A model generated the notes under the pieces. The model was not told the DNA's origin. It saw nothing but the letters and a program-made list of their open reading frames with translations, and ran no database searches. A stretch of 64,000 nt of DNA. It comes from Lentinula raphanica (taxonomy: Eukaryota > Basidiomycota > Agaricomycetes > Agaricales > Omphalotaceae). Every line of letters starts with the position of its first letter. The first letter of the stretch is position 1. The DNA lies in assembly GCA_027919835.1 (NCBI GenBank), contig JANVFP010000044.1:1-64000 (forward strand), read 5' to 3'. The position numbers and the translations under genes were made by a program. Below are positions 4,408-62,072 of the stretch, in pieces.

Positions 4408-5510
4408 CTACGTATGCGATTCGGACCTCCTCGCCCGTTTCTCGGCTGATCTTAAACGCTGCTGATACTCTTGTATCTTCTCTTGAGCTTGAGTAGCTGT
4501 TTCCTCCAATGCTAGCTTCTGTAGCGCTTGCTTGCGATACTTCAGGTGGCACCTGATGAAGTCATAAACCACCCAGTCGTCGCGGTAATCTTCGAGGAAG
4601 CTGAACTTGGTGACCGCCTGGAGATACAAGTCAGTGAGATGGCGGATCACATCGATTGTTTGCGTGACTGACCAGTGTTCGTACCTCCTCGACCTTCGAG
4701 CGATCTTGTTTGCTGAGAGGTTTCAAGCAGTCCAGTTTAGTCTCAACGGTCGCATCAATGAACCTCTGATCAAGATTAGTATACACAAACTAGAATACGA
4801 TATCGAATCGTTCGCCATACCTTGACTTTATCGAAACGTGCGATTGACCAATTCAGTGCGTGACGTAAGTTGTATCCCCCTCGACCAGGCCTACCTACTT
4901 CACCGGAAGGTTTGGCGATTTTGCGATCGCTGCCATCATCATCAGCTTCATCATCAACATCATCATCATCATCGTGGGTTTGAGCGCGTATATGATCTTC
5001 TTCATGATTTTCGGGAACGTTCTGTTTTCCGTAATCTACTGGAGAGGCCATTTTTTGAGTAGTACTCAAAACACCGCGAGGACGAGAGGAACGAATCGGC
5101 GTCAAGCTTTGATCGTAGATGGTATATGTCTGGAAAGCTGAACGATTTTGAGAAGAGGAAGAGACAGTGGGAGCGCGTGGAAGTTTCGGAGAAGTGAGTG
5201 TAATGCTGGTAGCGCGACGAAGCTTCGAAGAGGTGGGCATCACACTGGTAGCGCGAGGAAGCTTCAAAGTGGGTCTGGTACTGATAGCGCGAAGAGGCTG
5301 CAAAGAAGTAGGTGTCGGAGTGGCAGGCGAGGAGGATTGAAACCTAGGATCTGGGGACGGTGATCTGTTATTGTATGGGGATGTCCGATGGACCACTCGC
5401 GGTGTTCTCGAAGGCCCAGAAGAATAGAGAATACGACGATCAACAGACTTGGGTGTAGAAGGGGCTGCAAGCAGCTCAACACGGTCGTGACGAGTACTAT
5501 TGCCAGGCAT
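4408..5510 (-). CDS. Ser/Pro-rich protein with acidic tract and conserved-looking C-terminal helical region, three exons
   Basis: Exons (minus) 5510-4821, 4765-4685 and 4617-4408 join through introns of 55 and 67 bp (GTATGG..CAG and GTACGA..CCAG), all in phase, giving about 326 residues. Residues 1-150 are Ser/Pro/Thr-rich with imperfect repeats of a unit like KLPRATS. A run of Asp/Glu (about 182-195) follows. The last 110 residues are well ordered, rich in Trp/Tyr/Phe, and end in a Gln/Glu/Arg helix that may form a coiled coil. I do not recognise the family. The layout suggests a nuclear protein with a disordered N-terminus. Confidence 0.65.
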
Positions 5511-41838: not shown

Positions 41839-43008
41839 CATCAGCAAAAATGTTCTGTGCTCAGGGCTACCCAACATAGATCTCAAAGAATTTCAGGTTG
41901 CCTGGGGTCTCTAGAGTCTTCAGTGTCTTCAGTGTCTCCTGAGACACCCCCCAAAACCTAAAGCCTTCAGAGTTCCTTGAATGTCTTTCAAAATCTCTGA
42001 ATTTCTTTGGATATCTTTGAAAATCTTTGAAAATCTTTAGAAATCTTTAGAAATCTTTGAATATCTCTGAGAATCTCTGAGAGTCTTCCAGAGATATTTA
42101 GATATCTTTCAAAGATTTTCCAAAGCTCTTTAATAAGTTCAAATGATTCAAAAACTTATTCAATCACTTGTACTTCATCATATGATACTCTATCTATTGC
42201 TCTTATATTGACTATATCTACTAACACCCATATATTATGATATACTGTATTTGAACTTGATAACTATTAATTTCGGAACACATTCTAATTATATGTATCA
42301 AGATTATATGTATCATAATATATTATTACAACCATTATATATGTGTAATGTTAATAAATATCATAGATAACAATGTATATAGTATATGTTATTATAGCTA
42401 TATTCAGATTTTGACCTGGTGAAGTTCTTTTTGATTGTACACAGTCCACGGTGGCAGGTCATGTGACCACCTATATTATTGACAACTGTGAGTTATAATA
42501 GTTTAACTGATATCTACACTGTATTACTACACTATACTATCTTCTAGATATTAAAATGCAATAGTATCTTATTTCATATTTGATATCTCAAATTTCAAAT
42601 TTTTGCAAACACTCAAAGTCTTCAGAGAAGCTCAAATATCTTTCAAAGATGTTCAAAGATATTCAAAGATATTCAAAGATCTTTCAAAGATATTCAGAGA
42701 ACATGAAAAATCTCAAGAAATCTTCAGGATATTGGAAAAAACCTAGGCAGCTCAGAGTATCCAAGCTCTCTAGAGTATCTGAAGAGCTCAGGTTATTCCC
42801 AAAAACCTGGAGCATTTTGGGAATCTCTGAGTTACCTTTGAACAACTCAGAAACAATTCTAAAGAATTTCAAGAAAACCAAATCTTGAGCCCTTTTCCCA
42901 AAGAGTTCTGAGAGTCTAGATACTTTAAACTATTTGAAAGACTTTAGACTTTTGGGGGAATCTCCGGTGTCTTTGAAAGACCCCTGGTCAGGGGTATTTT
43001 TCCTGATG
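41839..43008. mobile_element. AT-rich TIR element, intact copy
   Basis: Begins CATCAGCAAAAAT and ends ATTTTTCCTGATG, 13-bp inverted repeats with one mismatch. Both subterminal regions carry arrays of a motif like ATCTTTGAA in the same orientation relative to the ends, as transposase-binding arrays do. The core is very AT-rich and non-coding. It is a non-autonomous DNA transposon of unknown superfamily. Flanking dinucleotides match (CA and CA), too short to prove a target duplication. Confidence 0.75.
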
Positions 43009-44143
43009 CAGATGACTATATTGGCAAATCTCGCTTCAAGCATTCACTTTTGAACCATTAGTAGATGGTTGGAGAGCACGAGATAATCTAACATACTCGT
43101 TGGACAGTCAATATAACAAGGCTTGATGCACGATGGTTGAAGAAGGTGAAGAGCCGGTGAAGAGCGATGAGAAGAGAAGTGTGGGAAAGCACGGCGCACA
43201 GCCATGAGTCACACGGCTATAGGTAATGTGATTTTCTTCCAATTTGAGCGATAAAAACCCAAAAAGGCGATTTCATCAGCAAAAATGTTCTGTGCTCAGG
43301 GCTACCCAACATAGATCTCAAAGAATTCCAGGTTGCCTGGGGTCTCTAGAGTCTTCAGTGTCTTTGGTGTCTCCTGAGACACCCCCCAAAACCTAAAGCC
43401 TTCAGAGTTCCTTGAATGTCTTTCAAAATCTCTGAATTTCTTTGGATATCTTTGAGAATCTTTGAATATCTTTAGAAATCTTTGAATATCTCTGAGAATC
43501 TCTGAGAGTCTTCCAGAGATATTTAGATATCTTTCAAAGATTTTCCAAAGCTCTTTAATGAGTTCAAATGATTCAAAAACTTATTCAATCACTTTTACTT
43601 CATCATATAATACTCTATCTATTGCTCTTATATTGACTATAGAGTCTACTAACACCCATATATTATGATATAATGTATTTGAACTTGATAACTATTAATT
43701 TCGGAACACATTCTGATTATATGTATCATAATATATTATTACAATCATTATATATGTGTAATGTTAACAAATATAATAGATAACAATGTATATAGTATAT
43801 GTTATTATAGCTATATTCAGATTTTGACCTGGTGAAGTTCTTTTTGATTGTACACAGTCCACGGTGGCAGGTCATGTGACCACCTATATTATTGACAACT
43901 GTGAGTTATAATATTTTAACTGATATCTACACTGTATTACTACACTATACTATCTTCTAGATGTTAAGATGCAATAGTATCTCATTTCATATTCGATATC
44001 TCAAATTTCAAATTTTTGAAAACACTCAAAGTCTTCAGAGAAGCTGAAATATCTTTCAAAGATGTTCAAAGATATTCAAAGATATTCAAAGATCTTTTAA
44101 AGATATTCAGAGAACATGAAAAATCTCAAAAAATCTTCAGGAT

Positions 44144-44608: not shown

Positions 44609-47600
44609 ATGTCGAACAACGCATCTATCCCTGCACCAGTGCCGGAGGTCCCTGAAGATCAAAAATTCGATGGGGGCATCCGAATCGCCTGGAAGCCTAT
44701 AGAACGAAAAATAAAAGTGGCTCTGCAAGCCCAAGGTCTCGACGGATACATCGACGGGACCGTGAAGAAACCGGACGAGAAAGGAGAGGCCGGTACGACG
44801 AAAGCCTCGGAAGCTACGCCTGTCTTCTCCGATAAACCAACACTCCCTGAGTGGAGGTTCCGGAATAATCGAACCAAAGGAATTATCGAATCGTTTATCG
44901 CCGACCTACCATCGTTCGTTCCCGAGGTCGACGACCTTGATGCTCACAAACTGTTCGACAAGCTTGTAAACGAGTTCGGACAAAAGGACGACATGCGGAA
45001 GACGCTCTCCATGCGGAGACTGAGAAGCCACATTTTCCGGGAGGATGTTATGAAACATAACAAGGCCCCCCAATTTTTCCTGATTTTCGTCTATTTTTCG
45101 CGGCTTTTCCTAACGAGTTTCCAGCGTTGTAGCCGATGGCCGAACCGTCGCCGAACTGGCGTTTATTCGGCGCTAAACGCATTTTCGCTTCTCGTCTCTC
45201 AACCTCCACCATCATCACCGTCACCTTCGCTCTTTCGACATCTTCTACTCGCTCTCGCTCATTCTGGACGCCAACGGAACGCCAAACCATGATCTAGGAA
45301 AGGACTAGGAATCTAGGGAACATCCGAGGAATGGAGACCGCAAGGAAACGGTCGGCCATTCAAGATACCTTTTGTGCGTAGTCCGTTCGACAGAACGGAT
45401 TACAAGTACTAACCTAGGCCATTAGGAGATGCCAGTAGACGTCGTCCGCTGACATCTCGGGTCCTTTATCCTCATCTTCCTTCAAACTTCCTTCTTTGGC
45501 CGCCCATCTCTTTCTTCCAGAAACCCTCGGTCCCTTTCCTCCTGACATATCATGGCTTTTCCCTGCTTGGTCCAGTCATCATGGTTCCAGAAACCTCGGC
45601 TCCGCTATACCATAAGACGATGACTCGTTTGACGGAGCCTTCAACGCATAATCGGCGTGACGAGAAGACTCCGCTGCTCCCAGTGGAAGGCCGGTTCTGC
45701 CTTTCCTTGTTCCCTCATTCCCATTCGACCCTTCAAGTTCCGGGTGCGTAACGTCGCGACCCTTATACTCTCTGACAGGTCTTTAGAGGTTGCCAAAAGC
45801 GGTGGCTCCGCTCGTTCACCAAAGAATATCCTTTATTCCTAAAGCTAACTACATCCGGCGAGTCATCGCCTCCACGAAGACTCGCCGATACCTCAGTTCC
45901 CTCGGAACCGGTCTCCTAATATCCCCTTTACCGTCGCTATCCTATTTCCATCTAACCATGACGATCTGCTTTCCAGGAACTCCGGGAACCGAAAGCTTTC
46001 AACCCTCCTCCTTCCTGCAGTTCCATGAAGTTCTGCTAGCTTACGCTTTCGTCGTCCGAATATTCGTCGCCCCACGTATGTATCCTCGTCGTTCTCACTA
46101 ATCTTCTTCGCAGTTTCCGGTCGCGGTACCTGGTTCTGGCTTCCGTACTTGTTTCGTCTCCTCTACGCGGAACGGTGGATTTCGTGTGGTGGTATCTCTT
46201 TGCTTATTCCAGTCATTGTGTTCCATGACCGGATCGACGCTATTCACGTCGATTCGAGTCATTTTCATTATATTCAATAAGGACTTTGAGTCCCGGCTCT
46301 CGTCGAGTCAACTCGAGTTCTTCCTTACTCCCGTTGACTCGACTCGCAGCCGACATCCTTTTTATATTGGTTACCTTTTATATCTTACTTACAAAAATAC
46401 CTATAAAAACCCTTGGTACTCGCATGTAATCCCCAGATCGGTTATTCTAGCTATTTGACCACTGTTTCCTCTAACTTTGTCTGAACCTCTCTTCTCTCTC
46501 TTGTCTGACCAAGTCTCATACTAAGGATAGTTCAAGTCCTTCCAAAGTCCCGATTCTCGACGTAAGACATTCTGCTTAGCAGATCTTGCACCGTTTTTCA
46601 GGACGACTAACTCGTAGCCGTCGAACTCAGGTGTATTCGAAGGTTAGAGTGTACGGTCACCTAACATAATAACCGATCTCTTCTGCCCCCAGAATGTCTA
46701 CGCAGACTATCCGGACGGAGACTCGGTCTCAAACTGAACCACAAGCATCACATACTTATCCTCCGGGATACAATAGATCACCAGGGAACCCAGACTCGAA
46801 CCCTGGATTCCTTACTCCGGGACGAATGTTGGGAGGAGAACCCCGACAGGTGCCACCACACATGGTGATGCCGACCCCTCCTAACACCATTGTCCCTAAC
46901 CTAAACCAACCATCTTTGCCAATCCCACCCATATCGGGTGGACCCAGGTGGCAACCACCACCACCACCACCTCCTTTTCTACCGCCACCTCCTCCCCCGA
47001 TCCAATATAACTACACACCACCCTCTGTTGGAATACAACAGTATGCTAATGCTGGTTCACGACGAACTTCAGTAGCATCTCATCAGTCCCAGATGTCGCA
47101 ACCCATGAATCAGGGTAGTGCATATGTGGGACAGATCTATCCTCCCATGGGATCGGGAATGGCTCCACCGACCCCTACTCGTTTTCCAACATTCCCACAG
47201 ATGCCTTCCATCGGGGAACAGTCTGCTTTGCCCAGGGCTATGCAACAAGAGGTTCCGAACCTGAATCCGTTACCTCCGCCACCTAACCCCTGGCCACATA
47301 TCCGAACTCCGGAACAGCAGGCTCAACCCTGGGGAGGTCGAACTCCAGAAACACTAGGAGTATCCACGTTTCAGACCTCTGGGCCACCTGCAAGCCCTGC
47401 ACAAGTCATGTACCCACAGAATACAGTTAGTACACGGAATCTACCCCCATTATCCATGGAACCTACTACGGTACCAGATGTATTAGAGGAAGATACCGTG
47501 AACCTACTGGCCACTCGGTGCAGACGATTAGCCCTTTTGCTAGGATTACGTGATCACCCTGAACGTCCCCGGGAGGACTGGATCAGTTTGATCTCGCAGT

Positions 47601-50600
47601 TGAGGTACAGCGTAGCACCTGGAGAGTATCCAGCCTTCCTGTCAAGGGCATTACGTCATGACTATATCCGTTGGGAATTTGACAAAGTGGTTCGCCAAAT
47701 TTATATGGCCTACCCTGAGCACCACATTCCTATCAAACTCCGTTACAATATTCCTATATCACCGAAATGGAAGCCTGGCATGCCTCGAGCTGGACAGTAT
47801 GTCCAAACAGGTACCATGACTAGTCCTCGGGAGGAAACAATTCCTGAACAACCAGAAGAAACAGAGGAACAGGAATCTCCAGAGGACAATCAGGGGGAAC
47901 AGGAGAAGGAAGAACCTCTGGATGTTCCTCGTACGGTCGCAGAAACTCGAACCGTTACCATACGGGAGCAGCCAGAAACTATTGAGATTGCTACAAATGA
48001 TGGGTCGAAAGATGAGAAATTTGGTGAGGAATCAGACTCAGGAGGCTACTGGGACTGGGATGGGAAGAGTTTCCTGCATACCACTACCATTGAGGGACAA
48101 GAAACAATAGATCGTATTGTGGAAGGAATCCCTCAGGACCCTGGACCCTCCAGTACAACTCATCAACAATCGCCGATATCGCCCATTTCGGTTGAAGGAA
48201 GTTTTGCAGGAAGAATTTCCGCGGAAGAAAAGGGAAAGAGGCCAATGCGACCAGTGGGTCCTAGACCTCCATCCCCTCCCAGAATCTTGCCAACTTTAGG
48301 AACTTCAGTCAATCCCTTTGTTACCCCAGAAATGATGATGGCACCCCAAATGCCATTCCAGAGTACTCCGTATACCAATTCTTGGGGTCATCAGCCTATG
48401 GGCTTATATAATCAGCCTACACCGTACCCCTCTACACCCTGGAATAATATGGCAGATCAAAATTTCATTAATCCAAATACGGTACAATGGAATTCATATG
48501 GTCCTCCACCTATGGGTCCACCCCCACCAACGGGTCCACCTCCACCAATGGGTCCACCTCCACCACCAGGACCACCTCCACCAAATAATCCATGGGGACC
48601 ACCTCCGCCACCACCACCAAATCCTCCCTTTGGACCACCGCTTCCTCCAAACGAGCCTCCCAGGAGACCTTCTGAAAATCCAGCTGGGCCTCCACCACCA
48701 CCTCCTCCACCCCCGGAACCCCCTTTTGGAGATCCTCCGAATGATCCTCCTCCACCAGGAAATAATAGTAATGGTAATAATAATTTCCCACCACCACCAC
48801 CTCCATCGAATCAGGGTTCCAATAGGTCTAGGGGTACACCGGGAGCTCAAGGAAGATTTGGAAACCAAGGTGCTAATTTTGCTCCCTATCCTGTTGATCC
48901 AGGTAGAGCAGAACGAGATGCTATTGCAAGGGAGTCCAAGCTAGAAATTCGGAAACCTGATGTCTTTGATGGAACTAACCGTGAAGCATGGCGTCCCTTC
49001 CTTAGTGATTGCTTCCGGATGTTCACAGCAAAACCAACTCTATATTCTAGCTCGGAATCTCGCGTGCAATATGCAGCTTCCTGGTTTAGTGGTGCAGCAG
49101 CTCGTTATTTCCAGACCTTGGTTGAAAGAGAATCCGAATTGGCTGGGAACTACAACCCTGCATTACATGAATGGAGTGCCTTCGTGCAAGTATTTGGAAG
49201 ACTCTTTGGTCTATATGACGAGAAACTGCAAGCACAATCAAACCTTAGCAATGCTCTCCAGAAATCGGATGAGTCATTTGCTGACTTCATTGTCCGTTTT
49301 GAGGACCAGGCACTTCGGACGGGATACAATGAGGAAGCCCTGCGTTGGCACCTTGTTGATCAGATTCGCTATGATCTGAGAAGCCGCTTGACATTGTTTG
49401 GTCGTATCCCAGATTCCTTCAGTGCAGTGGTGGATCGTCTGTTGGAGTTAGATGGTGCCCGGGAGGTGTTGCGGAATACAGGAACTCAGTATAACAATCC
49501 CAACTATCCTTTTAAAGGAAACCGACCCGGAGGTTACCAGAATAACTTTGCAAACCGAAATGCCAACAATAATCCCTCCACTACTGTTCCTGCTCAGCAA
49601 AAGAAACCTGGTGCTAATACGAATACTATGACTACGAAACCAGTTGTGGGTAAGGTGGCAGTGACCGAGGAACCAAATCAACCCTCTCCTCCCAATCAGA
49701 TCTCTAAGGAGGAACGAGACTATCGAATGGCTAACCGGCTATGCATTCGTTGTGGGAAGAAGGGTCACTTTGGTCGAAACTGCCCCGAACATAGAAATGC
49801 GACTGAAGTTATCCGTGCAGCATGTGTGGGATGTCAATGCTGTGATGACTGCCAACTAGAAGAGGAATTCTTAGGGACAGATCATACCACGACTACTGAA
49901 GAGGATCCCACTGCAGAAGTCGTAACAGATGGGGACTGCACCGCCCATGCTGCCTTCACTGTGGAAGATCAGGGAGATCAGGAAATGCAGTTGCTGTATC
50001 AAATTGATCCAACTGGTGATTCCTGGAATCTAGTAGAGAACTCGGGAAAAGATTAAGCGACTCAGGCCGAGGACTGAGTCAGCTTACAGAGGCCTCGGAA
50101 GCACTCCAAGGAGTTGTCACAGACTCTGGGAGTGGTGCTGCGGTAATCAATTCCCGGAAAACACACTCGTTTATTGTCAAAACTCAGCTCTATGATTCCC
50201 CAAATAGTTCTAATCCCACTCTGATTGATTCCGGAGCTTCCCGCAATTTTGTTGATCAAACAATTGCAAATAAATTTCCTCAAAAAGTAACGTCACTACC
50301 TAAACCCATTCCGCTCACTCTGTTTGATGGCAATGATACATCTGCTGGACATATTACCCATCAAATGGATGCTGTCATCAAATTTGATGATGGGACAGTT
50401 CATACTGAACCCTTACTTGTCACTCGCCTACACCCATCTGCCCGAATTGTTTTGGGTCTACCATGGTTACGCAAGTACAATCCCACCATAGATTGGAAAA
50501 CCATGACCTTGACCTTCGAAGGGCACTCATGCCTTGGTGCAACTGTCATTCCAGATTCCAAAAAGCGAAATCCTTGTTTCAATAAAGTAGAACTCGAGGA

Positions 50601-53600
50601 AGTTGTGGATGAAGAATTTCAGAAACCCAGACTCACTCTTGGGTCAGATGACCCACTTTTACTCCTTGAAAGCGAAATGGCGGAATATTTGTATCAAAAA
50701 ACTCTACTTACCTCGGGAACAAATAAAGGGCAGGAGAAACCACATCAAGATCCTGTCCCTGATACGGAACCCATGGGCCATAATGACTCCTCTCCACCCG
50801 AGGCTTCAATTGATTCTTCCTATCCTCCAAATGGTGAACATACCTCAGACATCCCATGCACAGAGGATACCTCCCCTGAAACACCAAAGCTTAAAGCACC
50901 ATATATTAGCTTAATTGGTGCTGCTCCATTCCAAACCTTAATCCGCCAAGGATGTGAAGCCTATGTCTTACATATCTACCCATCCCGCGAGGAATCTGAG
51001 GTTGTTGGATTAACAGCATCAACAGGAAACACTCCTTCAGAGCCTCGAGTATCTGGTGTTGGTGTGCTGGATGAAACTAATGAAGCCATGAAGAAGCATG
51101 TTCCTGAAGAGTACCACCGATTTGTCAAAGTCTTCTCTGCAGGTGAAGCTCAGAAGTTAGCTGAGCATCGACCCTACGATATCAAAATCGAGACAGAAGA
51201 TAATAAATTACCACCAATCGGTAAACTCTACAACATGTCTGAAACAGAGTTGAAAGCTCTAAAGACATATATTGATGACATGCTAGGGAAGGGATTCATC
51301 CGATCATCCAATTCTCCTATTGGAGCACCAGTACTCTTTGCAAAGAAGAAGGACGGAAGCCTACGCTTGTGTGTGGACTATCGAGCATTAAACCGTTTGA
51401 CTCGAAAGGATCGATATCCTCTGCCTCTGATTGGAAACTTAATTGATCAGCTGCGCAATGCCAAAATCTATTCCAAAATCGACCTCCGGGATGGATACTA
51501 TAACATCCGAGTTGCTGAAGGTCACGAGTGGAAAACAGCTTTTCGCACGCGCTATGGATCCTTCGAGTACATGGTGATGCCATTTGGTTTAACCAATGCA
51601 CCAGCCACATTCCAACATTTCATGAATGATCTGTTCCATGATATGGTCGACATCAGTGTAATCATCTATCTGGATGATATTCTGATCTTCTCCAAGAATG
51701 AAGAAGAACACCGAGTTCACGTGGCTAAAGTACTTCAGCGGCTAGAAGAAAATAATCTTCATGCCAAGCCTGAAAAGTGCGAATTTCATACCACATCCAC
51801 AGAATATCTTGGTGTCATCATCACTCCAGGAGGAATTCGGATGGATCCTACCAAAGTTCAGGTGATCAGAGACTGGCCTGAACCGCAAACCATTAAACAA
51901 CTACAATCCTTTCTAGGATTCGCAAATTTCTACCGACGGTTCATAGACAATTACTCAGGAATCGTGAAACCTCTGACTCGGCTACTAGGGAAGAATGTTC
52001 CATGGATATGGTCAGAAGAATGCCAGAAAGTATTTGATCTATTGAAACAGGCATTCCAAGAAGCACCTATTCTTCAGCACTTCGACCCTGAACTTCCTAT
52101 TGTGGTAGAATCAGATGCATCGGATTATGCAATTGCTGCAATTATCTCCCAAATGAATCCTGTCACTCAGGAGCTGCACCCCATTGCCTTCTTTGCACGT
52201 TCCATGATGCCTGCAGAATTGAATTACGACATCTATGACAAGGAGTTATTGGCAATTGTGGAAGCATTCAAGCAATGGCGGAACTACCTGGAAGGTGCTC
52301 GACACAAGATAGAAGTATACTCAGATCATAACAACTTGCAGTTCTTCACAACCACAAAACAGCTTAGTAGAAGACAAGCAAGGTGGTCGGAGTTTCTGTC
52401 AGGATTTGATTTCACTATCAATTACCGACCAGGTCGGTTAGGTGCTAAACCTGATGCTCTCACCCGACGTCCTGATGTTTACCCCAAGAAATCCTTCCAA
52501 AATGCAGCTAATCAGCATAATGAGCGAATTCTCATCCGTCCTGAGCAACTGCTTGCAAACTTACTCCTTGATGAGGAGTTACAGTTAAACCAAATCCGGG
52601 CAGCCTCGAAGGATGAGTATTGCCTAAAGATGGGGGAAAAAGCTAGGTCTGATGACCCGGGGCCCTTCACACTAGACGGCGATCTCCTATTACGTGATGG
52701 CAAGATTTACGTGCCAAAGGACAATGACTTACGGCTCCAAATACTCCGTGATCACCATGACCACAAACTCAGGGGTCATCCAGGTGTTCACAAGACCATC
52801 CAATTGATTTCTCGGACTTATTTCTGGCCAGGCATTCACCGAGATGTGATCCGATATATTCGATCATGTCATGAGTGCAATCGAACCAAATCAGTCAGGA
52901 ATCGACCATTTGGGTATTTAAAGCCGTTACCCATTGGACAACGTCCTTGGAGTTCCATCTCTATGGACCATATTGTGGGTCTTCCCATGTCCTCTGGTTG
53001 CGATGCCATCCTTGTTGTAGTCTGCCGACTTTCTAAACAGGGCATTTTCATCCCATGTCAAACAACGGACACTGCTTTGGATTTGGCAAAGCACTTTATC
53101 CGTCATGTGTTCTCAAAACATGGGCTGCCTGCTGACATAATATCAGATCGGGGAAGTACATTTATCTCTGCTTTTTGGCAAGCACTATGCTCACTTCTGG
53201 ATATAAAGTCAAATTTGTCCACCGCTTATCATCCAGAAACAGATGGACAAACTGAACGCACGAATCAGACCTTGGAGCAATATCTACGTCTCTTTGTCAA
53301 TTATGACCAAGACGATTGGTACGATATGCTTCCCTTAGCCGAGTTTGTCTACAACAACACACCGAGCATGGCAACAGGTGTATCACCATTTTTTGCTAAC
53401 AAAGGATATCATCCCCGACTATCGATATCACTTGATAGTGTACCAAATCATGCAGCTCACCAAATTGCTAAAGACCTATCACAACTTCATGAATATCTCA
53501 AAGAAGAGATCTCTCATGCAAACTCATCTTCTGAACAACACTATAACACACACCGTCGCGAAACACCAAATTGGCAACCAGGACAGAAAGTCTGGTTAAG

Positions 53601-56600
53601 CACGGAGAATTTACGAATGAAACGACCTTTAAAGAAACTAGATTGGAAACGCTTAGGTCCCTTTGAGATTCTAGCCAAAGTCTCCTCCCATGCCTACAAG
53701 CTCAAGCTACCCCTAGCCTTACAAGGAATTCACGATGTCTTCCATGTGTCCTTGTTAAAGCTCGATATTCCTGATCCATTCCCAGGTCGAAAGCCTCCCC
53801 CGCCACCACCTGTTGAAATCGAAAATGATCAACAACGCTTTGAAGTAGCACAAATAATTGACTCTCGAAAAGTAGGACGAGCTGTCAAGTATTTGGTACG
53901 GTGGAAAGGCTATGGCCCCGAGGATGATACATGGGAGCCCTTATCAAACCTAATAGGAGCCTACGATGCAGTTCAGGAGTACCGCCGAACTCATCCTCGA
54001 AAACCACAGGCGTCCGAGGCTGCCATGAACAAATTGGAGCACGAAACTCAAGAACTTGTGGAATCTCAAGGAAACTTGCTACTAGAAGATCAATGATAAA
54101 TATAGGAATACATTTGATTCAAGGGATACAAGTACAAAAACATTTTTATGGATTTTCTACTATTTCCGGAAGGAGTCTGGCTTTGGCGAAGAAATACAAG
54201 TACAGTTGCCATTACATTGGAGCAGGATTAACACTCAAGGAGACCTAATACCTGCAGAACCTTGTTCTGAGTAACCCCCAGGAGTGGAGTTTCTAGAATT
54301 TCCCTCCAGTTCCATAGGAGAAGGGGAACGAAGATCCTCCTGAGGATAAACGAGGTCATCAGTAGAGTTAGACCAAGCTCTACTGGAGGAGTCAGGAGTG
54401 GGAATCCTGCGACGATTAAGGGTACGGCCTCGGCCTCGGTATCCAAATTGGCGTCGACGGGGAGCAATCGGACCAGCAATGGCTGAAGAGGAGGACGATG
54501 TCGAAGATGCGGAAGAAGACAAAGCGGGACTCGCAGGTTCATGAATAGGAAAAGGTGTAACGGGTACCATACCAGGAACTTGGTATTGGGTGGCCGGATC
54601 AGGCGAAATGCCAGTGGTAGGAATAGGAATCACCCGAGTAGACGGAACGACTCTATGAGGCGACTAGTGAGCATGGGATCAAGAAAAAATAAAAGAAAAC
54701 ACGCACTGAAAAGATGATTGGTCCAACAAATCAGTAACGGAAGGGAAACGTTGACTGATTAAACCCTCCACGAGTTCCTTGTCATCCCGTGTCGTCTCCC
54801 CTACCCCAATCACTGACAGTCGAGCCGAATCGAGGCGAAACCGTTGCAGCTCCATGGCGTAAACAATCTCTTCGATGCGGAGCGATGCCGAGATCATGTT
54901 GTGGTTGTTGGTATGAACTCCAACGTGATGAATACGCTGGATCTCCGCGATGAGGAAACGAAGGTTGTTGTGGATAAGGTTGGAGTAAAGAGGAGATGCG
55001 TCGGCTTGGGACAAGCGATGACCGTATTCTGCAAGACGTACGGAGCGACTGATATGAAAGCCGACCTTGGCTTGGGCAGTCCTCAGAGCTGAAGAAAAAG
55101 CCTCGTTAAGTCTCGGTGCAAAAAGAAAAAAGAGGTGCAGAACATACCTATCAACCTTTGCAGTGCCGCTTTTTCAGCACGCCTGTGTCTCCTCAAAGCC
55201 ACATCCCTTTGATCCATGTAGAACTTGGCACGCTGGCTTTGAAGAACAGCGGTTTCACGTTCATCTGAAATCTCACTGATAAGACTAAAGTTGAGAAGGG
55301 TAAGTATGGGGCCAGGAAGGAAGGAAAATAACACTCACTTGGCTACATGTCGTTCCAAAGACATCTCGCGCTCGGTACGAATGGAACGCTCCACGACCTC
55401 ATCGTACTCCGGAGGTGCGACAGGATCATGGAGTTCAGAGTTGGAATTGGGAACCAGAGAAGGGGAATCCATTAGGAAGTGGAGATAAAACAGAGAAACG
55501 GCCAGCTTTTGTAGTCGACAAACCGATCGTTGGAGTAGGATGGGAAAGGAGTATCGGTCGTTCAATAAGGAAGACGAAGACACAATATTGGGCGCCCACA
55601 TACATTGGTGCTGTCAACGCCACCAAGTCGTCAGCCTACACCATTCTAGGAACCTTGAAGGAGAGGAACGTTTCTTGAAGGGAGGGTAATGTTATGAAAC
55701 ATAACAAGGCCCCCCAATTTTTCCTGATTTTCGTCTATTTTTCGCGGCTTTTCCTAACGAGTTTCCAGCGTTGTAGCCGATGGCCGAACCGTCGCCGAAC
55801 TGGCGTTTATTCGGCGCTAAACGCATTTTCGCTTCTCGTCTCTCAACCTCCACCATCATCACCGTCACCTTCGCTCTTTCGACATCTTCTACTCGCTCTC
55901 GCTCATTCTGGACGCCAACGGAACGCCAAACCATGATCTAGGAAAGGACTAGGAATCTAGGGAACATCCGAGGAATGGAGACCGCAAGGAAACGGTCGGC
56001 CATTCAAGATACCTTTTGTGCGTAGTCCGTTCGACAGAACGGATTACAAGTACTAACCTAGGCCATTAGGAGATGCCAGTAGACGTCGTCCGCTGACATC
56101 TCGGGTCCTTTATCCTCATCTTCCTTCAAACTTCCTTCTTTGGCCGCCCATCTCTTTCTTCCAGAAACCCTCGGTCCCTTTCCTCCTGACATATCATGGC
56201 TTTTCCCTGCTTGGTCCAGTCATCATGGTTCCAGAAACCTCGGCTCCGCTATACCATAAGACGATGACTCGTTTGACGGAGCCTTCAACGCATAATCGGC
56301 GTGACGAGAAGACTCCGCTGCTCCCAGTGGAAGGCCGGTTCTGCCTTTCCTTGTTCCCTCATTCCCATTCGACCCTTCAAGTTCCGGGTGCGTAACGTCG
56401 CGACCCTTATACTCTCTGACAGGTCTTTAGAGGTTGCCAAAAGCGGTGGCTCCGCTCGTTCACCAAAGAATATCCTTTATTCCTAAAGCTAACTACATCC
56501 GGCGAGTCATCGCCTCCACGAAGACTCGCCGATACCTCAGTTCCCTCGGAACCGGTCTCCTAATATCCCCTTTACCGTCGCTATCCTATTTCCATCTAAC

Positions 56601-59600
56601 CATGACGATCTGCTTTCCAGGAACTCCGGGAACCGAAAGCTTTCAACCCTCCTCCTTCCTGCAGTTCCATGAAGTTCTGCTAGCTTACGCTTTCGTCGTC
56701 CGAATATTCGTCGCCCCACGTATGTATCCTCGTCGTTCTCACTAATCTTCTTCGCAGTTTCCGGTCGCGGTACCTGGTTCTGGCTTCCGTACTTGTTTCG
56801 TCTCCTCTACGCGGAACGGTGGATTTCGTGTGGTGGTATCTCTTTGCTTATTCCAGTCATTGTGTTCCATGACCGGATCGACGCTATTCACGTCGATTCG
56901 AGTCATTTTCATTATATTCAATAAGGACTTTGAGTCCCGGCTCTCGTCGAGTCAACTCGAGTTCTTCCTTACTCCCGTTGACTCGACTCGCAGCCGACAT
57001 CCTTTTTATATTGGTTACCTTTTATATCTTACTTACAAAAATACCTATAAAAACCCTTGGTACTCGCATGTAATCCCCAGATCGGTTATTCTAGCTATTT
57101 GACCACTGTTTCCTCTAACTTTGTCTGAACCTCTCTTCTCTCTCTTGTCTGACCAAGTCTCATACTAAGGATAGTTCAAGTCCTTCCAAAGTCCCGATTC
57201 TCGACGTAAGACATTCTGCTTAGCAGATCTTGTACCGTTTTTCAGGACGACTAACTCGTAGCCGTCGAACTCAGGTGTATTCGAAGGTTAGAGTGTACGG
57301 TCACCTAACAGAGGAGGAGACTATAGACGCCTTCTTCAAGACCCTGAGAGACCTCCGAAAGGAGGCTATTGATATGGGGAATGAAGTACCCGATACCGTC
57401 TTCCGAGAGATTATTCTGGCGGCGTTCCCAACAGTCGCGTTCGATACCATTATGCAGAATATAAACGCCAACCTGACGATATTCTCAACGTCGAGTTCCG
57501 TTATTCAGCAGGTGGCGTTCCAGTACTCCAGGTCTACGAACCGTCCAGATGCTGCTATCCCCGGCGATAGACTTCCCCAAGCGAACTCTGTCTCTGTGCT
57601 TGCCTCTCGTATCGAGTCCCTCGAGAAGCACATCTCATCGTCCGCAAACGCCGTTCGTTCTCCCGAAAAGAAGTGTCGGAACTGTCAGAGATCAGGACAT
57701 ATCGCCGAGGACTGCTTCCGAAAAGGAGGGGGTAAGGAGGGTCAGTATCCTTCTTGGTGGAAAGGAAAGAGAGATACGAACACGACATCATCGTCATCAC
57801 ATGCGGCAAACACAGCATCTCTACCTGAAGTCGGGGAACTCACTCAGCACTATGGGTTGACCGCTTCGTACCCAGGGGAGAGTCCTGGGGATGTGTTCGC
57901 CGACACAGGTGCTTCGGATCACTTCTTTAGGGATAGGGGTGATTTCGTATCGTATACTCCTTGTGACCGACAAGCCAAGTCGTCAGAGGCGACGACGCCC
58001 CTTCGTATCGTCGGATTCGGAACTGTGAGGAAAGTGTTCGAAGGTTCGAATGGGACAGTAACTCTCACCTTTGAAAACGCATTCCACACCCCTGATGTGT
58101 CCTATAACCTCGTCTCGATCTCGAGAATGGATAAACTCGGATACCAGGTACTCTTCGGGAATGGAGTCGCAAAGTTCTTCAGTCCAGGTGGGGTACACTT
58201 CCTGACGGGCCATGGCTCCAACGGCCTGTATCGTCTGACCGAAAAGGCAGCTCCTCCTAACGGACTAGTCGCCCGATCCCGTTCCCTGAATCACCCCGCA
58301 GACATGAAGACCTGGCATCGCAGGCTAGGCCACATCGGGATGTCACGATTGCGAATGATGGTCCAGAAAAATCTGGTCGATGGGCTAGAGATTGTTGGGC
58401 CGGTGGACGAAGATCTAGAGAAATGCGATAGTTGCCATCTGGGGAAGGCTAAGAGACGACCATTTGACGCAGTCACAACACGCGAGACCCGCTTACTCGA
58501 GAGGGTTCACGTTGACCTTACGGGACCCATGCGGGTTCGAGCGATGGGGGGATATTACTACTCCATGCCTATCGTTGATGGTCATTCGGCGATGGGTAAG
58601 GATTTCTACCTGGCTAATAAGGAATCGAACACGACCCTTGCAGCGATGAAGTCCTACAAGGCCAGAGCAGAGAATGAGACGGGGGAGAAAATGCTGTACA
58701 TCCGCATAGATGGGGGAAAGGAGTTCGGGAGCGCACTGTGGCGCCAGTGGGCAGACGAAAATGGGATTATCCTAGAGATCGTACCACCTTACTCGTCAGC
58801 AGCGAACGGTGTAGCAGAACGAAAACACGGCATCACCTTTGAACGTGTTCGAACAATTCTCCACGACTCAGGATTGCCTCTCTTCCTCTGGGCCTACGCA
58901 TGTGCCTACATCGTGTATACTGATAACTTGGTCCCGGCTGCCCGCATTGAGTTTCGGATTCCTGCAGAAGTATGGCACAAGCGGAGGATGGACGTTGCAC
59001 ACCTTCGACCCTTTGGATCGTTGGCATGGGGAACAGCTGTGAATGACAAGTCGCCAGGGAAGTTGGATCTTCGTGGATTTAGAGGTCGTCTGGTTGGCTA
59101 TGGATCTGGTCGAGGCACCTACTTGCTGTATACATCGTCGGGCACGGTGGTTCCTAGTAGGGATGCTGATTTCGAAGAACGTATCATGCCTTTGCTGCCT
59201 CCGGCTGGAGAAGAGGGGAGAATAGAGGAGGTCGACGGTTCTTTCTTCCCAGCCGATGCCAGCAACGATGTCGAGAAGTCAGACTCAGCCGATGCCGAGA
59301 AACCGAAAGAGACGACAGCTGACCAGACTGCCGATCACGAGATAGCCGAATTCGAAGTCGATGCCGAAATCAAACCTCCCCAGAGTCAACAACCCCCACT
59401 TCGACGCTCGACCAGGCAGAAAACCCCATCCTCGAAAGCTATACAGACCAACGAATTTCTCTCCAGGGAGGAAGAAGCTAGGAAATCCGGAGCGGAATGG
59501 GCTAAGTCTCGAGTACCAAGAGCAAACTTCGTATCTTTCGCCATGCTGACAACCTTTCTCCCGGACGAAGTGGGTCCTGAATTCAACCTCGCGCTTGCCG

Positions 59601-61186
59601 CCGTAGGCCTACCGATTGTACCCAAATCATACGGAAAGGCGATGGAAGATCCTGATCGTTGGTCACCAGCCATAGAAAAAGAGAAGTTGAGGATGGAGGA
59701 ATTTGGCGTGTTTGGTCCCCTACAGGATCCACCACAAGGAGCTACGATCTTAAACCCTTTGTGGGTCTTTGCTCATAAGGTAGATGGTATGGGACGCATT
59801 GTCGACGAAAAAGCCAGACTCGTTGTAAACGGAGGGAAACAGACCGAGGGAGTTGACTACTTCGAAACCTTTGCGGCGGTCCTTTGATTCGAATCCCTCC
59901 GAATCCTCATTGCGGTATGGGTCACCCTTGGCTACAATATATGGCAAATAGATTTCGCATCAGCATACCTCAACGCAGACCTCAAAGAGGAGATTTTCGT
60001 ACGACCACCCGAAGGTTTTGAAGGGAGAGGTTCAGGCAAGGTGATGAGGCTCAAAAAGTCACTTTACGGGACTATGCAGGCTGGGAGAAATTGGTGGAAA
60101 ACCCTCGATCAGGCCTACGTCGATCTCGGGTATACTCGATCCCAAGCAGACCAGTGTGTGAGGAGCAGAGCCTCGTCTTCAGGGGAGACCATCACGGGGA
60201 CTTACACGGATGATACGCTGGGTGGATCGTCCTCGGCAGAGGAGATGATGAGGGCGAAGCAAGAGTTGGGCGAGAAGTTCAGAGCGAAGGATACCGACAG
60301 CGTTCAGTTTGCGTTGGGGATGCGTCTGGTCCATAATCGAGATGAAGGAAGCGCTACCTTGTCGATGCCAGCGTACTGGGACCAAGTGTTCGCAAGGCAT
60401 GGACTCCAGGACCTTAAGCCGAAGTCAACGCCTCTACCCAATGGGATCGTACTCACTCTAGACCAGAGCCCCAAGACGGAAGAGGACAAGATCTTCATGC
60501 GCGACAAACCCTACTCAGAACTTCTCGGTGCGCTTCAGTTTGGCCAAGGGTCGTGTAGACCCGATATAGCGTACGCCACGAACATGCTATCTAGGTTCCT
60601 TCAGAACCCCGGTCGCGCTCACTGGAATGCTCTCATCCATTTATGCCGATACATCATAGGCACAAAGGACCACGGAATCACCTACCGGCGTCAGGAGAAT
60701 GGACTAGACCCCAAGACCTATTGCGATGCGGATTATGCTACCTGTGTGGATACTCGACGTTCGACTACTGGAGTCGTTACCTTCCTGGCTGGAGGGCCGG
60801 TGTTCTGGATGGCAAAACGTCAGGATGTGGTTGCGCTGTCTACCACCGAAGCTGAGTATATAGCCTATGGGAAGGGAGCGCAGCAAGCACGATGGGTACA
60901 CAACTTCCTGGCTGAGATCGGTCACCCTCCTCCTCTTCCTTCGAATCTTTACGCTGATAATCGTGGTGCGATCGCGATCTCCGAGAATCCCAAATTTCAC
61001 CAGAGGGTCAAGCATATAGATATCCGGTTCCATTACCTTAGGGATCTCGTTGAGAGGGGAGAGATCAAAATCCATTATGTCGAGTCGGAGAACAACGCCG
61101 CAGATATCCTCACGAAAGCCCTCGGTACCACTCTTCATCGTCGTCAGGTTGGGCTGTTAGGACTTAGCCCCTCCAATCGGGACTAG
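44609..61186 (+). CDS. Copia Gag-Pol polyprotein, split by gypsy insertion, one in-frame stop
   Basis: Coding segments 44609-45045 and 57316-61186 are in frame with each other once the gypsy element and one target copy are excluded (1,436 codons). Domains in order: copia-type Gag; CX2CX4HX4C knuckle (CRNCQRSGHIAEDC, about 267-280); aspartic protease (ADTGASDHFF, about 342); integrase zinc motif (WHRRLGHIG..CDSCHLGK) and DDE core (VDLTGP, IDGGKEF, GVAERKH); reverse transcriptase (DFASAYLNADL, YTDD); RNase H (ALSTTEAEYIA). A TGA at 59885-59887 (codon 1003) interrupts the RT where relatives have Arg, consistent with one C-to-T change of CGA. Gypsy insertion and the stop make the copy inactive. 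The TTG-started frame at 57230 running out of the gypsy LTR is not a real start. Confidence 0.9.
45046..46666 (+). repeat. 5' LTR of the gypsy element
   Basis: 1,621 bp, long for this group. It opens with a 17-bp palindrome TGTTATGAAACATAACA and ends TAACA. Short frames inside it are repeated in the 3' LTR and are not genes. Confidence 0.95.
46402..46446 (+). promoter_or_regulatory. Gypsy promoter and predicted RNA start / self-primer
   Basis: TATAAAAA (46402-46409) is followed about 33 bp later by AGATCGGTTATT (46435-46446). That 12-mer is the exact reverse complement of the PBS after the LTR. Transcription starting at or near 46435 would put it at the RNA 5' end, as in Tf1 of fission yeast. 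The 3' LTR equivalent is 57079-57090. Confidence 0.7.
46668..46679 (+). other. Self-complementary primer binding site of the gypsy element
   Basis: AATAACCGATCT begins 1 nt after the 5' LTR and pairs perfectly over 12 nt with 46435-46446. I see no good match to a tRNA 3' end. Self-priming is the known mechanism of the Tf1/sushi group. Confidence 0.7.
46694..50056 (+). CDS. Gypsy Gag with long proline-rich N-terminal region
   Basis: 1,120 residues starting 27 nt after the LTR, much longer than a usual fungal Gag (roughly 300-500). Proline tracts occur near residues 90-115 and 598-730 (runs such as PPPMGPPPPTGPPPPMG). A retrotransposon Gag domain spans about 760-935 (REAWRPFLSDCFRMF..LLELDGAREVL). 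A CX2CX4HX4C zinc knuckle is at about 1016-1029 (CIRCGKKGHFGRNC), followed by an extra Cys cluster (CVGCQCCDDC). Gag forms the particle and binds genomic RNA. The proline-rich extension is unusual and could bind host SH3/WW or profilin-type partners; that is inference. The stop TAA at 50054-50056 lies inside the frameshift signal. Confidence 0.9.
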   Translation: MSTQTIRTETRSQTEPQASHTYPPGYNRSPGNPDSNPGFLTPGRMLGGEPRQVPPHMVMPTPPNTIVPNLNQPSLPIPPISGGPRWQPPPPPPPFLPPPPPPIQYNYTPPSVGIQQYANAGSRRTSVASHQSQMSQPMNQGSAYVGQIYPPMGSGMAPPTPTRFPTFPQMPSIGEQSALPRAMQQEVPNLNPLPPPPNPWPHIRTPEQQAQPWGGRTPETLGVSTFQTSGPPASPAQVMYPQNTVSTRNLPPLSMEPTTVPDVLEEDTVNLLATRCRRLALLLGLRDHPERPREDWISLISQLRYSVAPGEYPAFLSRALRHDYIRWEFDKVVRQIYMAYPEHHIPIKLRYNIPISPKWKPGMPRAGQYVQTGTMTSPREETIPEQPEETEEQESPEDNQGEQEKEEPLDVPRTVAETRTVTIREQPETIEIATNDGSKDEKFGEESDSGGYWDWDGKSFLHTTTIEGQETIDRIVEGIPQDPGPSSTTHQQSPISPISVEGSFAGRISAEEKGKRPMRPVGPRPPSPPRILPTLGTSVNPFVTPEMMMAPQMPFQSTPYTNSWGHQPMGLYNQPTPYPSTPWNNMADQNFINPNTVQWNSYGPPPMGPPPPTGPPPPMGPPPPPGPPPPNNPWGPPPPPPPNPPFGPPLPPNEPPRRPSENPAGPPPPPPPPPEPPFGDPPNDPPPPGNNSNGNNNFPPPPPPSNQGSNRSRGTPGAQGRFGNQGANFAPYPVDPGRAERDAIARESKLEIRKPDVFDGTNREAWRPFLSDCFRMFTAKPTLYSSSESRVQYAASWFSGAAARYFQTLVERESELAGNYNPALHEWSAFVQVFGRLFGLYDEKLQAQSNLSNALQKSDESFADFIVRFEDQALRTGYNEEALRWHLVDQIRYDLRSRLTLFGRIPDSFSAVVDRLLELDGAREVLRNTGTQYNNPNYPFKGNRPGGYQNNFANRNANNNPSTTVPAQQKKPGANTNTMTTKPVVGKVAVTEEPNQPSPPNQISKEERDYRMANRLCIRCGKKGHFGRNCPEHRNATEVIRAACVGCQCCDDCQLEEEFLGTDHTTTTEEDPTAEVVTDGDCTAHAAFTVEDQGDQEMQLLYQIDPTGDSWNLVENSGKD
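50044..50098 (+). promoter_or_regulatory. Programmed -1 frameshift signal between gag and pol
   Basis: Slippery heptamer G GGA AAA at 50044-50050 in the gag frame; spacer 50051-50058 (8 nt, containing the gag stop); stem 1 GACTCAG (50059-50065) with CTGAGTC (50074-50080); stem 2 CCGAGG (50067-50072) with CCTCGG (50093-50098). Loop 1 is 1 nt and loop 3 is 12 nt, textbook H-type pseudoknot geometry. Slippage by -1 enters exactly the pol frame. Confidence 0.85.
50050..54096 (+). CDS. Gypsy Pol (protease, RT, RNase H, integrase, chromodomain)
   Basis: The pol frame is open from 50020 to 54096 and is entered by -1 slippage at 50050, giving about 1,348 Pol residues. Aspartic protease: LIDSGASRNFVD, at residue ~60, upstream of the first Met at 50365, so that Met cannot be the natural start. 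Reverse transcriptase: YLDD at ~540. RNase H: VESDASDYAI, ~685. Integrase: HHCC zinc motif (HHDHKLRGHPG..CHECNRTK), core Asp in SMDHIVG, Asp in ISDRG, Glu in TDGQTERTNQ. C-terminal chromodomain: KYLVRWKGYGPEDDTWEP, ~1278-1295. Chromodomains of this class direct insertion toward marked chromatin. No stop or frameshift is visible, so Pol looks functional. Confidence 0.95.
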   Translation, partial: RLSDSGRGLSQLTEASEALQGVVTDSGSGAAVINSRKTHSFIVKTQLYDSPNSSNPTLIDSGASRNFVDQTIANKFPQKVTSLPKPIPLTLFDGNDTSAGHITHQMDAVIKFDDGTVHTEPLLVTRLHPSARIVLGLPWLRKYNPTIDWKTMTLTFEGHSCLGATVIPDSKKRNPCFNKVELEEVVDEEFQKPRLTLGSDDPLLLLESEMAEYLYQKTLLTSGTNKGQEKPHQDPVPDTEPMGHNDSSPPEASIDSSYPPNGEHTSDIPCTEDTSPETPKLKAPYISLIGAAPFQTLIRQGCEAYVLHIYPSREESEVVGLTASTGNTPSEPRVSGVGVLDETNEAMKKHVPEEYHRFVKVFSAGEAQKLAEHRPYDIKIETEDNKLPPIGKLYNMSETELKALKTYIDDMLGKGFIRSSNSPIGAPVLFAKKKDGSLRLCVDYRALNRLTRKDRYPLPLIGNLIDQLRNAKIYSKIDLRDGYYNIRVAEGHEWKTAFRTRYGSFEYMVMPFGLTNAPATFQHFMNDLFHDMVDISVIIYLDDILIFSKNEEEHRVHVAKVLQRLEENNLHAKPEKCEFHTTSTEYLGVIITPGGIRMDPTKVQVIRDWPEPQTIKQLQSFLGFANFYRRFIDNYSGIVKPLTRLLGKNVPWIWSEECQKVFDLLKQAFQEAPILQHFDPELPIVVESDASDYAIAAIISQMNPVTQELHPIAFFARSMMPAELNYDIYDKELLAIVEAFKQWRNYLEGARHKIEVYSDHNNLQFFTTTKQLSRRQARWSEFLSGFDFTINYRPGRLGAKPDALTRRPDVYPKKSFQNAANQHNERILIRPEQLLANLLLDEELQLNQIRAASKDEYCLKMGEKARSDDPGPFTLDGDLLLRDGKIYVPKDNDLRLQILRDHHDHKLRGHPGVHKTIQLISRTYFWPGIHRDVIRYIRSCHECNRTKSVRNRPFGYLKPLPIGQRPWSSISMDHIVGLPMSSGCDAILVVVCRLSKQGIFIPCQTTDTALDLAKHFIRHVFSKHGLPADIISDRGSTFISAFWQALCSLLDIKSNLSTAYHPETDGQTERTNQTLEQYLRLFVNYDQDDWYDMLPLAEFVYNNTPSMATGVSPFFANKGYHPRLSISLDSVPNHAAHQIAKDLSQLHEYLKEEISHANSSSEQHYNTHRRETPNWQPGQKVWLSTENLRMKRPLKKLDWKRLGPFEILAKVSSHAYKLKLPLALQGIHDVFHVSLLKLDIPDPFPGRKPPPPPPVEIENDQQRFEVAQIIDSRKVGRAVKYLVRWKGYGPEDDTWEPLSNLIGAYDAVQEYRRTHPRKPQASEAAMNKLEHETQELVESQGNLLLEDQ
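54235..55472 (-). CDS. Four-exon antisense gene inside the gypsy element, about 356 residues
   Basis: Exons (minus) 55472-55339, 55284-55148, 55088-54707 and 54652-54235 join through introns of 54, 59 and 54 bp (GTGAGT..TTTAG, GTATGT..TTCAG, GTGCGT..CATAG). Phase is kept and the total is exactly 357 codons with a final TGA. The product starts MDSPSLVPNSNSELHDPVAP, has a Glu/Arg-rich helical centre (ERETAVLQSQRAKF, then RHRRAEKAALQRL), an ordered helical region in exon 3, a Ser/Pro-rich stretch, and an Arg/Gly-rich basic patch (RRRQFGYRGRGRTLNRRR) that could bind nucleic acid. It sits between pol and the 3' LTR, opposite to them. The third acceptor has an alternative at about 54663. No homologue is recognised. 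Confidence 0.7.
55677..55689 (+). other. Polypurine tract of the gypsy element
   Basis: GAAGGGAGGGTAA directly precedes the 3' LTR and would prime plus-strand synthesis. Confidence 0.7.
55690..57310 (+). repeat. 3' LTR of the gypsy element
   Basis: 1,621 bp, aligned with the 5' LTR at a constant offset of 10,644. One difference is visible (T 57233 for C 46589). Confidence 0.95.
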
Positions 61187-61581: not shown

Positions 61582-62072
61582 AGGATATTGGAAAAAACCT
61601 AGGCAGCTCAGAGTATCCAAGCTCTCTAGAGTATCTGAAGAGCTCAGGTTATTCCCAAAAACCTGGAGCATTTTGGGGATCTCTGAGTTACCTTTGAATA
61701 ACTCAGAAACAATTCTAAAGAATTTCAAGGAAACCAAATTTTGAGCCCTTTTCCCAAAGAGTTCTGAGAGTCTAGATACTTTAAACTATTTGAAAGACTT
61801 TAGACTTTTGGGGGAATCTCTGGTGTCTTTGAAAGACCTCTGGTCAGGGGTATTTTTCCTGATGTTTTAATTTTACTTTGACAGATTTCCCACGCCAAAT
61901 GGGCTATAGGACGATTCCTTCATTTCATTCCGGACTCGTAATTTTGTACATTCTTCTGAGGTTTTGCTATGACCGACTCTTTTCTCTGCACTCTGAAGCC
62001 ATTCGTACATTGCGAGGGCAAAGCCGTGTAAGGCTACAGTAGAATTTGATGACTGATGGTTTTTGGAACGCC

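Follow-up and report, generated by a model that had tools for sequence, protein, structure and literature searches.

A predicted antisense gene with three introns between pol and the 3′ LTR of a Ty3/Gypsy chromodomain element in Lentinula raphanica

Antisense genes have been described in several groups of LTR elements. In plants, Ty3/Gypsy elements including Grande (gene23), RIRE2, Retand (TRP28) and PvRetro13 carry an antisense coding region, termed aORF-3R, between pol and the 3′ LTR; it is present in most copies, its sequence is conserved, and a promoter of its own is reported for Grande (PMC7264820, PMC11963269). The word 'intron' does not occur in the main text of either of these papers. 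Among fungi, the Boty element of Botrytis cinerea, with a chromodomain gag-pol, carries the antisense gene brtn (PMC7264820, PMC4227169, PMC8365987), and a transcript resembling BRTN is described from Monilinia (PMC5987419). HTLV, also an LTR element, has spliced antisense genes for small regulators at its 3′ end, namely HBZ and APH-2/3/4 (PMC10186651). Finally, LTR elements of bdelloid rotifers contain ORF3 genes that are expressed from spliced messages (PMC5408684).

We analysed a stretch of 64,000 nucleotides from the mushroom Lentinula raphanica (contig JANVFP010000044.1, positions 1 to 64,000), hereafter the window, which very probably contains an element-borne antisense protein gene with three spliceosomal introns, and not a passenger. 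Like aORF-3R, the window gene is on the opposite strand between the pol stop codon and the 3′ LTR, but the aORF-3R elements are from plants, Retand belongs to a non-chromovirus lineage, and the TRP28 domain (PF04195) is absent from the window product at Pfam E ≤ 0.1. With brtn, compared here by its published description only, it shares the antisense orientation, the fungal host and the chromodomain element, although Botrytis is an ascomycete. The likeness to HBZ is that of an antisense gene with introns at the 3′ end of an LTR element, the window case being known from DNA structure; however, HBZ is described as a bZIP factor of animal retroviruses that is transcribed from the 3′ LTR, and a Pfam scan gave no bZIP match in the window product. 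The rotifer ORF3 genes are likewise extra genes of LTR elements, but PMC5408684, in its accessible portion, does not describe them as antisense. An earlier reading of the window, made from the sequence only, knew of no spliced antisense gene described in a fungal chromodomain element. An antisense gene in such an element is known (brtn), whereas no multi-intron antisense gene under selection in a fungal or mushroom LTR element was found in the open-licence literature, as represented mostly by titles and the beginnings of abstracts. Antisense genes of LTR elements are thus known already, and, as far as that literature shows, the multi-intron one in a mushroom clade is new.

Host element and gene structure

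The gene lies in a single Ty3/Gypsy chromodomain element (45046-57310) with inverted LTR ends and a 5-bp target duplication (Table 1). The LTR pair, the target duplication and the pol domain order ending in a chromodomain are features of a Ty3/Gypsy chromovirus. In the Pfam scan, pol contains RVT_1 (327-486), RT_RNaseH (574-681), Integrase_H2C2 (786-843), rve (879-957, a match under the cut-off) and Chromo (1159-1208). The gag ORF gave Retrotrans_gag and CCHC knuckle matches, both under the curated cut-off. No aspartic protease was found upstream of RT, as neither the gag nor the pol ORF has a Pfam protease match at E ≤ 0.1. The two LTRs differ at one position in 1621 bp, which indicates a young insertion.

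Table 1. Features of the element and of its antisense gene, in window positions.
Feature	Position	Strand	Basis
Target-site duplication GAGGA, left copy	45041..45045	.	flanking sequence
5′ LTR, TGTTA...TAACA, 1621 bp	45046..46666	+	single mismatch vs 3′ LTR, at 46589
gag ORF, 1120 aa	46694..50056	+	ORF list and Pfam scan
pol ORF, 1243 aa: RT, RNase H, integrase, chromodomain	50365..54096	+	ORF list and Pfam scan
Exon 4: disordered C-terminal part, RGRGR patch, DDLVYP, GYSEQGSAGIRSP; stop codon ends at 54235	54235..54652	-	translation, alignment, model
Intron 3, 54 bp, GTGCGT..TAG	54653..54706	-	same place in C4, C7, C14 and C9 copies
Exon 3: helical middle part, dN/dS 0.027 vs C4	54707..55088	-	copy comparison, model
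Intron 2, 59 bp, GTATGT..CAG	55089..55147	-	same place in C4, C7 and C9 copies
Exon 2: long-helix part, dN/dS 0.042 vs C4	55148..55284	-	copy comparison, model
Intron 1, 54 bp, GTGAGT..TAG	55285..55338	-	same place in C4 and C7 copies
Exon 1: start codon, PPEY motif	55339..55472	-	spliced translation, motif search
Candidate antisense promoter	55473..55689	-	consensus words only
3′ LTR	55690..57310	+	LTR pair comparison
Target-site duplication GAGGA, right copy	57311..57315	.	flanking sequence

To the right of the element, after the target duplication, an ORF that resembles Copia pol resumes (57311-59887; named by eye from its translation). This continuation, also judged by eye, suggests that the Gypsy element probably sits inside a Copia element. 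The window also contains several copies of a repeat about 0.9-1.2 kb long (41839-43008, 43274-44143 and 61582-61864), which is found at two other loci too (L005 4356-5490 and L012 2196-2953).

The antisense gene runs from 55472 to 54235 on the minus strand, between the end of pol at 54096 and the start of the 3′ LTR at 55690. Its four exons, of 134, 137, 382 and 418 nt, sum to 1071 nt, which encode 356 residues and a stop codon. The gene is tail to tail with pol, and 138 bp separate the two frames. The earlier claim of four minus-strand exons giving 357 codons, with three introns of 54-59 bp, proved exact to the base, and its placement between pol and the 3′ LTR of a gypsy element agrees with the coordinates and with the position kept in related elements.

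The window copy has candidate promoter words upstream of its start codon: counted from the ATG, TACAAA is at -41 and CCAAT at both -119 and -136. A second copy of the gene (C4, see below) has TATAAA at -39 and only CAAT, so that a TATA-like word is found in both intact copies; none of the words TACAAA, TATAAA and CCAAT was found upstream of the copy at C7.

Introns in the coding regions of retrotransposons are expected to be lost, since splicing of the genomic RNA would erase them. The packaged RNA, however, is the sense strand, in which the introns of an antisense gene are not introns and pass through reverse transcription uncut. The antisense orientation of the gene thus explains how its introns survive in a retrotransposon.

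Could the exon model itself be an artefact, that is, a chance open frame stitched together from convenient GT..AG sites? Within the ranges tried, with introns of 40-110 bp, 266 three-intron combinations keep the frame open in the window sequence. A single sequence is therefore insufficient as proof of the model, and it is the comparison of copies that supplies this proof.

Copies in the genome and purifying selection on the protein

A DNA search of the genome (49 Mb, 75 contigs) located copies at three places. A protein search of the same genome gave 16 matches, 15 of which lie at five places (C44, which is the window, C4, C7, C9 and C14), while the last is a weak match on C31 (E 0.78). Four of the five places adjoin a matching pol, and the fifth is a fragment at C9 beside another repeat. 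At the DNA level, the C4 and window copies are 87% identical, and C4 also encodes 356 residues and a stop codon. Its introns, of 52, 58 and 54 bp, are at the same three places as those of the window gene and retain GT and AG. The C7 copy has all three introns in place, but its exon 1 frame is disrupted and exon 3 contains a disturbed stretch. The C14 copy has lost its 5′ half, where unrelated sequence is found instead, and keeps intron 3. The C9 fragment is about 0.7 kb long, is joined on one side to another repeat, and keeps introns 2 and 3. None of these four copies has lost an intron in any part that is still preserved, which fits the earlier proposal that the introns escape removal by lying antisense to the genomic RNA.

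In the C14 copy (L006, about 4790-5400), the replacing sequence is full of near-repeats of a palindromic word, GGGTAGCTACCC. The 0.9-1.2 kb repeat of the window splits the 5′ LTR at C4 and also borders the C9 fragment.

The coding regions of the window and C4 copies have 137 differences, with 24, 18 and 95 at codon positions 1, 2 and 3, respectively (chi-square p = 3.6e-18). By the Nei-Gojobori method, these correspond to 94.5 synonymous and 42.5 non-synonymous changes. The comparison between copies that the sequence-only reading had proposed thus gave an overall dN/dS of 0.115, which indicates purifying selection; pol of the same pair has a dN/dS of 0.039. The selection is uneven along the gene. 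In codons 1-45, dS is saturated and dN is 0.247 (21.5 non-synonymous changes), so exon 1 is poorly conserved. The ratio is 0.042 in codons 46-90, 0.027 in codons 91-217 (exon 3), 0.174 in codons 218-300 and 0.546 in the last 57 codons (301-357), a value based on eight changes only. Introns 1, 2 and 3 are 53%, 91% and 80% identical between the two copies. As the LTR pair of the C4 element, whose 5′ LTR is split, has 3 differences in the 1466 bp compared, both insertions are young, and selection acted during rounds of transposition. DNA comparison thus shows a gene structure common to several elements and, between the two intact copies, purifying selection on the encoded protein.

These results leave a negligible probability for the chance frame. 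The conserved intron places, the bias towards third codon positions and a 99% identical NCBI gene model (see below) all contradict it, and in our view the copy comparison refutes it.

They also make it very improbable that the antisense transcript itself is what matters, and not the protein. Such a transcript would overlap the 3′ end of the sense RNA and act through double-stranded RNA or by interfering with sense transcription, as proposed for plant elements in PMC7264820, and the tail-to-tail arrangement, with so short a distance between the frames, means that read-through would give double-stranded RNA. However, selection acts on the amino acids, with 95 of the 137 differences at third positions, and intron 1 has diverged to 53% identity although the protein is preserved in exons 2 and 3.

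The protein gene that we favour does not seem to be strictly needed in every copy. Three of the five copies in the genome (C7, C14 and C9) are broken, so the gene was not retained by every element that moved, and their frames count against such a need. Related elements with a broken frame, which the sequence-only reading had named as evidence against itself, therefore exist, while the C4 copy is intact and under selection.

The same slot in pol relatives and the mosaic 3′ part

A search with pol, in which 48 of 496 candidates were scored, listed 49 matches, and the best 30 were taken as loci. We set apart the loci of the window kind (L023, L024, L025 and L035) and read the 26 other relatives over 1500 bases after the pol match. 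One of them, L038, was left out because its pol match stops at residue 617 of 948, and the 25 usable relatives have 51-70% pol identity. An antisense stop-free frame of 199-329 codons follows pol in 24 of these 25 (drawn from the best 30 loci of the 49 matches); these frames run from stop to stop and are not gene models. None of the 24 overlaps the pol frame, and 23 of them exceed in length every sense frame after pol, the exception being L046 with a sense frame of 267 codons. In the remaining relative, L043, the longest antisense frame has 72 codons. Among 15 chosen pairs of antisense frames, dN/dS was 0.094-0.352 in 14, which indicates purifying selection in these pairs, and the last pair differs by a single synonymous change only. 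Nearly all relatives examined, then, have long antisense frames in the interval that separates pol from the 3′ LTR, whereas in the window's own kind the frame is broken at three of five places. In three more distant elements (44-46% pol identity), no antisense frame of more than 150 codons was found; one of these, C30, gives no clean test, as another pol starts about 550 bp on.

The window gene is thus kept in place in related elements, a point that the sequence-only reading had proposed to check. An antisense gene in this slot is not unique to the window element, as the relatives carry antisense frames there too.

The proteins predicted from this slot differ between groups of relatives. In relatives with 64-70% pol identity, the antisense frame encodes a long coiled-coil protein, with short introns where these were read (L026, L027, L029 and L031), and all seven of its protein matches are annotated at NCBI in L. 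raphanica. Relatives with 51-52% pol identity (L040-L042 and L044-L052) have a different antisense frame of 199-236 codons. In the two of these that were inspected, L040 and L041, a CxxC..C..CxxC..C pattern is combined with an acidic tail. Six pairs within this group that have more than one change gave dN/dS values of 0.096-0.157. The Cys-rich protein matches Zn_clus at an E of 0.25 only, and 'zinc-cluster-like' is a name by resemblance.

We claim homology of the window family to neither of these two kinds; for the coiled-coil family, a profile comparison of very thin alignments gave a probability of 0.1 percent (E 0.52). The motifs DLxYP and PPxY, which are common to these two families, are leads only.

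The 3′ part of the element has a history that is partly separate from that of pol. In 150-bp windows, the window and C4 elements are 93-100% identical in pol, whereas identity is 63-97% for the antisense gene and 57-95% for the LTR. Both of these parts thus diverge where pol does not. Against C7, pol is 72-87% identical, and after pol only 54233-54417 (67%), 54815-54880 (76%), 57152-57310 (70%) and a 30-bp LTR match align. Faster change of the 3′ part may account for this. Against C14 (L006), identity is 95-99% up to about 53550 and then falls to 91, 89, 84, 81 and 66%, and no match to the LTR of the window element was found in L006. This sharp fall appears better explained by a template switch. 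Because identity in C14 pol falls stepwise (window 50923-54375 against L006), recombination probably occurred ahead of the end of pol that encodes the chromodomain.

It is somewhat probable that the interval between pol and the 3′ LTR in this mushroom chromodomain Gypsy clade is a strand-protected niche that houses multi-intron genes of at least three protein types: a helical protein with PPxY and RGRGR, a long coiled coil ending in DLxYP, and a Cys-rich zinc-cluster-like protein. A wider proposal, which we make tentatively and consider rather unlikely as a whole, adds that gene and LTR move as one 3′ cassette and are joined by recombination to pols that are nearly identical, so that each lineage would have an antisense regulator matched to its own LTR; what argues for gene and LTR travelling together is only that both diverge where pol does not.

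The protein product and its possible role

The product corresponds to an NCBI gene model, FB446DRAFT_710107 (P0001), of 356 aa, to which it is 99% identical over 100% of its length; this model is a prediction by others and not a transcript. A single-sequence search of the protein database found eight proteins and an alignment search nine, with about 8000 candidates sharing most words scored each time. Eight further L. raphanica proteins (P0002-P0009) are 46-62% identical to the product, and no homologue was found outside L. raphanica among the best word-sharing candidates that were scored (8/8 and 9/9 matches).

This distribution bears on whether the gene is a cellular one that was transduced or inserted antisense, with its introns, and is carried as cargo. 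The sequence-only reading had allowed for such a captured host gene. Short introns of 52-59 bp are compatible with that origin, an insertion at the DNA level would bring introns along, and the ultimate source of the gene may still be a host gene. However, the idea of cargo found no support: neither the genome search nor the protein search, all of whose matches among the roughly 8000 candidates scored are from L. raphanica, yielded an intact host homologue outside LTRs, none of the five places in the genome is a free-standing intact copy, and purifying selection together with a slot that is filled in most relatives favours a function for the element. We therefore regard cargo as improbable, and a resident gene of the element as the much better reading. 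Our high confidence applies to the presence of an element-borne antisense protein gene, known here from DNA alone, and not to its role.

Several short motifs recur in the nine proteins P0001-P0009. PPxY is found near the N-terminus of five (P0001-P0004 and P0007), RGRGR in seven and DDLVYP in five, with EDLVYP in P0004-P0006. The C-terminal peptide STPxGYSEQGSAGIRS is almost invariant in the eight proteins that extend to it, and as the window, C7 and C14 copies encode it with different synonymous codons, it is preserved as protein. No Pfam family was found in the product at E ≤ 0.1, including no envelope family. An AlphaFold2 model from eight sequences has low confidence (mean pLDDT 56), with a helix at 34-118, further helices to about 202 and a disordered remainder. 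A model of this quality is too poor for a fold match to be expected, and none was found in PDB at E ≤ 0.001.

Another protein, P0016 (FB446DRAFT_794190), has two tandem N-terminal parts that resemble the C45-type antisense product, each with PPPY, and is probably two gene models joined.

How would such a gene work? Antisense transcription may be driven by a promoter of the gene's own within 55473-55689 or by the LTR acting in reverse; the mRNA would have its 5′ end a short distance upstream of 55472 and its 3′ end within or close to the 138 bp that precede the pol stop, and the host would splice it. The product, with PPxY near its start, a long helix, a helical middle part, a disordered RGRGR tail and a near-fixed C-terminal peptide, might oligomerise and bind nucleic acid or Gag. 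It could then tune the element's own expression or particle assembly, as the antisense regulators of deltaretroviruses do and as is proposed for plant aORF-3R. Because the antisense gene could be on at times when the sense promoter is silent, the role we would put first, although with less than even confidence, is control of sense expression or of silencing; a regulator of its own LTR would resemble HBZ and what is suggested for plant aORF-3R. A capacity of the product to bind RNA or DNA, suggested by the RGRGR patch, is a guess.

Our second choice, held more doubtfully, is a partner of Gag or RNA. PPxY motifs bind WW domains of the Nedd4/Rsp5 type, and in this version PPxY would call a Nedd4/Rsp5-type ligase. 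An envelope-like or Gag-assembly protein, with PPxY as a late-domain-like motif, is possible but seems somewhat less likely than a nuclear regulator. PPxY is found in five of the nine proteins and also in P0016, which is of a different antisense family; gag itself contains PPGY, and RGRGR is present in seven of the nine. On the other hand, so short a motif as PPxY may arise by chance in proline-rich sequence, and the lack of any Pfam match, and thus of any to an envelope family, speaks against an envelope-like protein.

Whichever role applies to the resident gene, it gives a fungal case in which to approach the open question of the function of antisense genes in LTR elements, and the plant review PMC7264820 calls for antisense and spliced transcripts to be searched for. 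Recently moved elements have retained three introns here, for which the antisense strand is the simple reason, so that the window gene is a natural test of strand-protected introns. Moreover, it would explain why L. raphanica annotations contain a group of orphan 'hypothetical proteins'.
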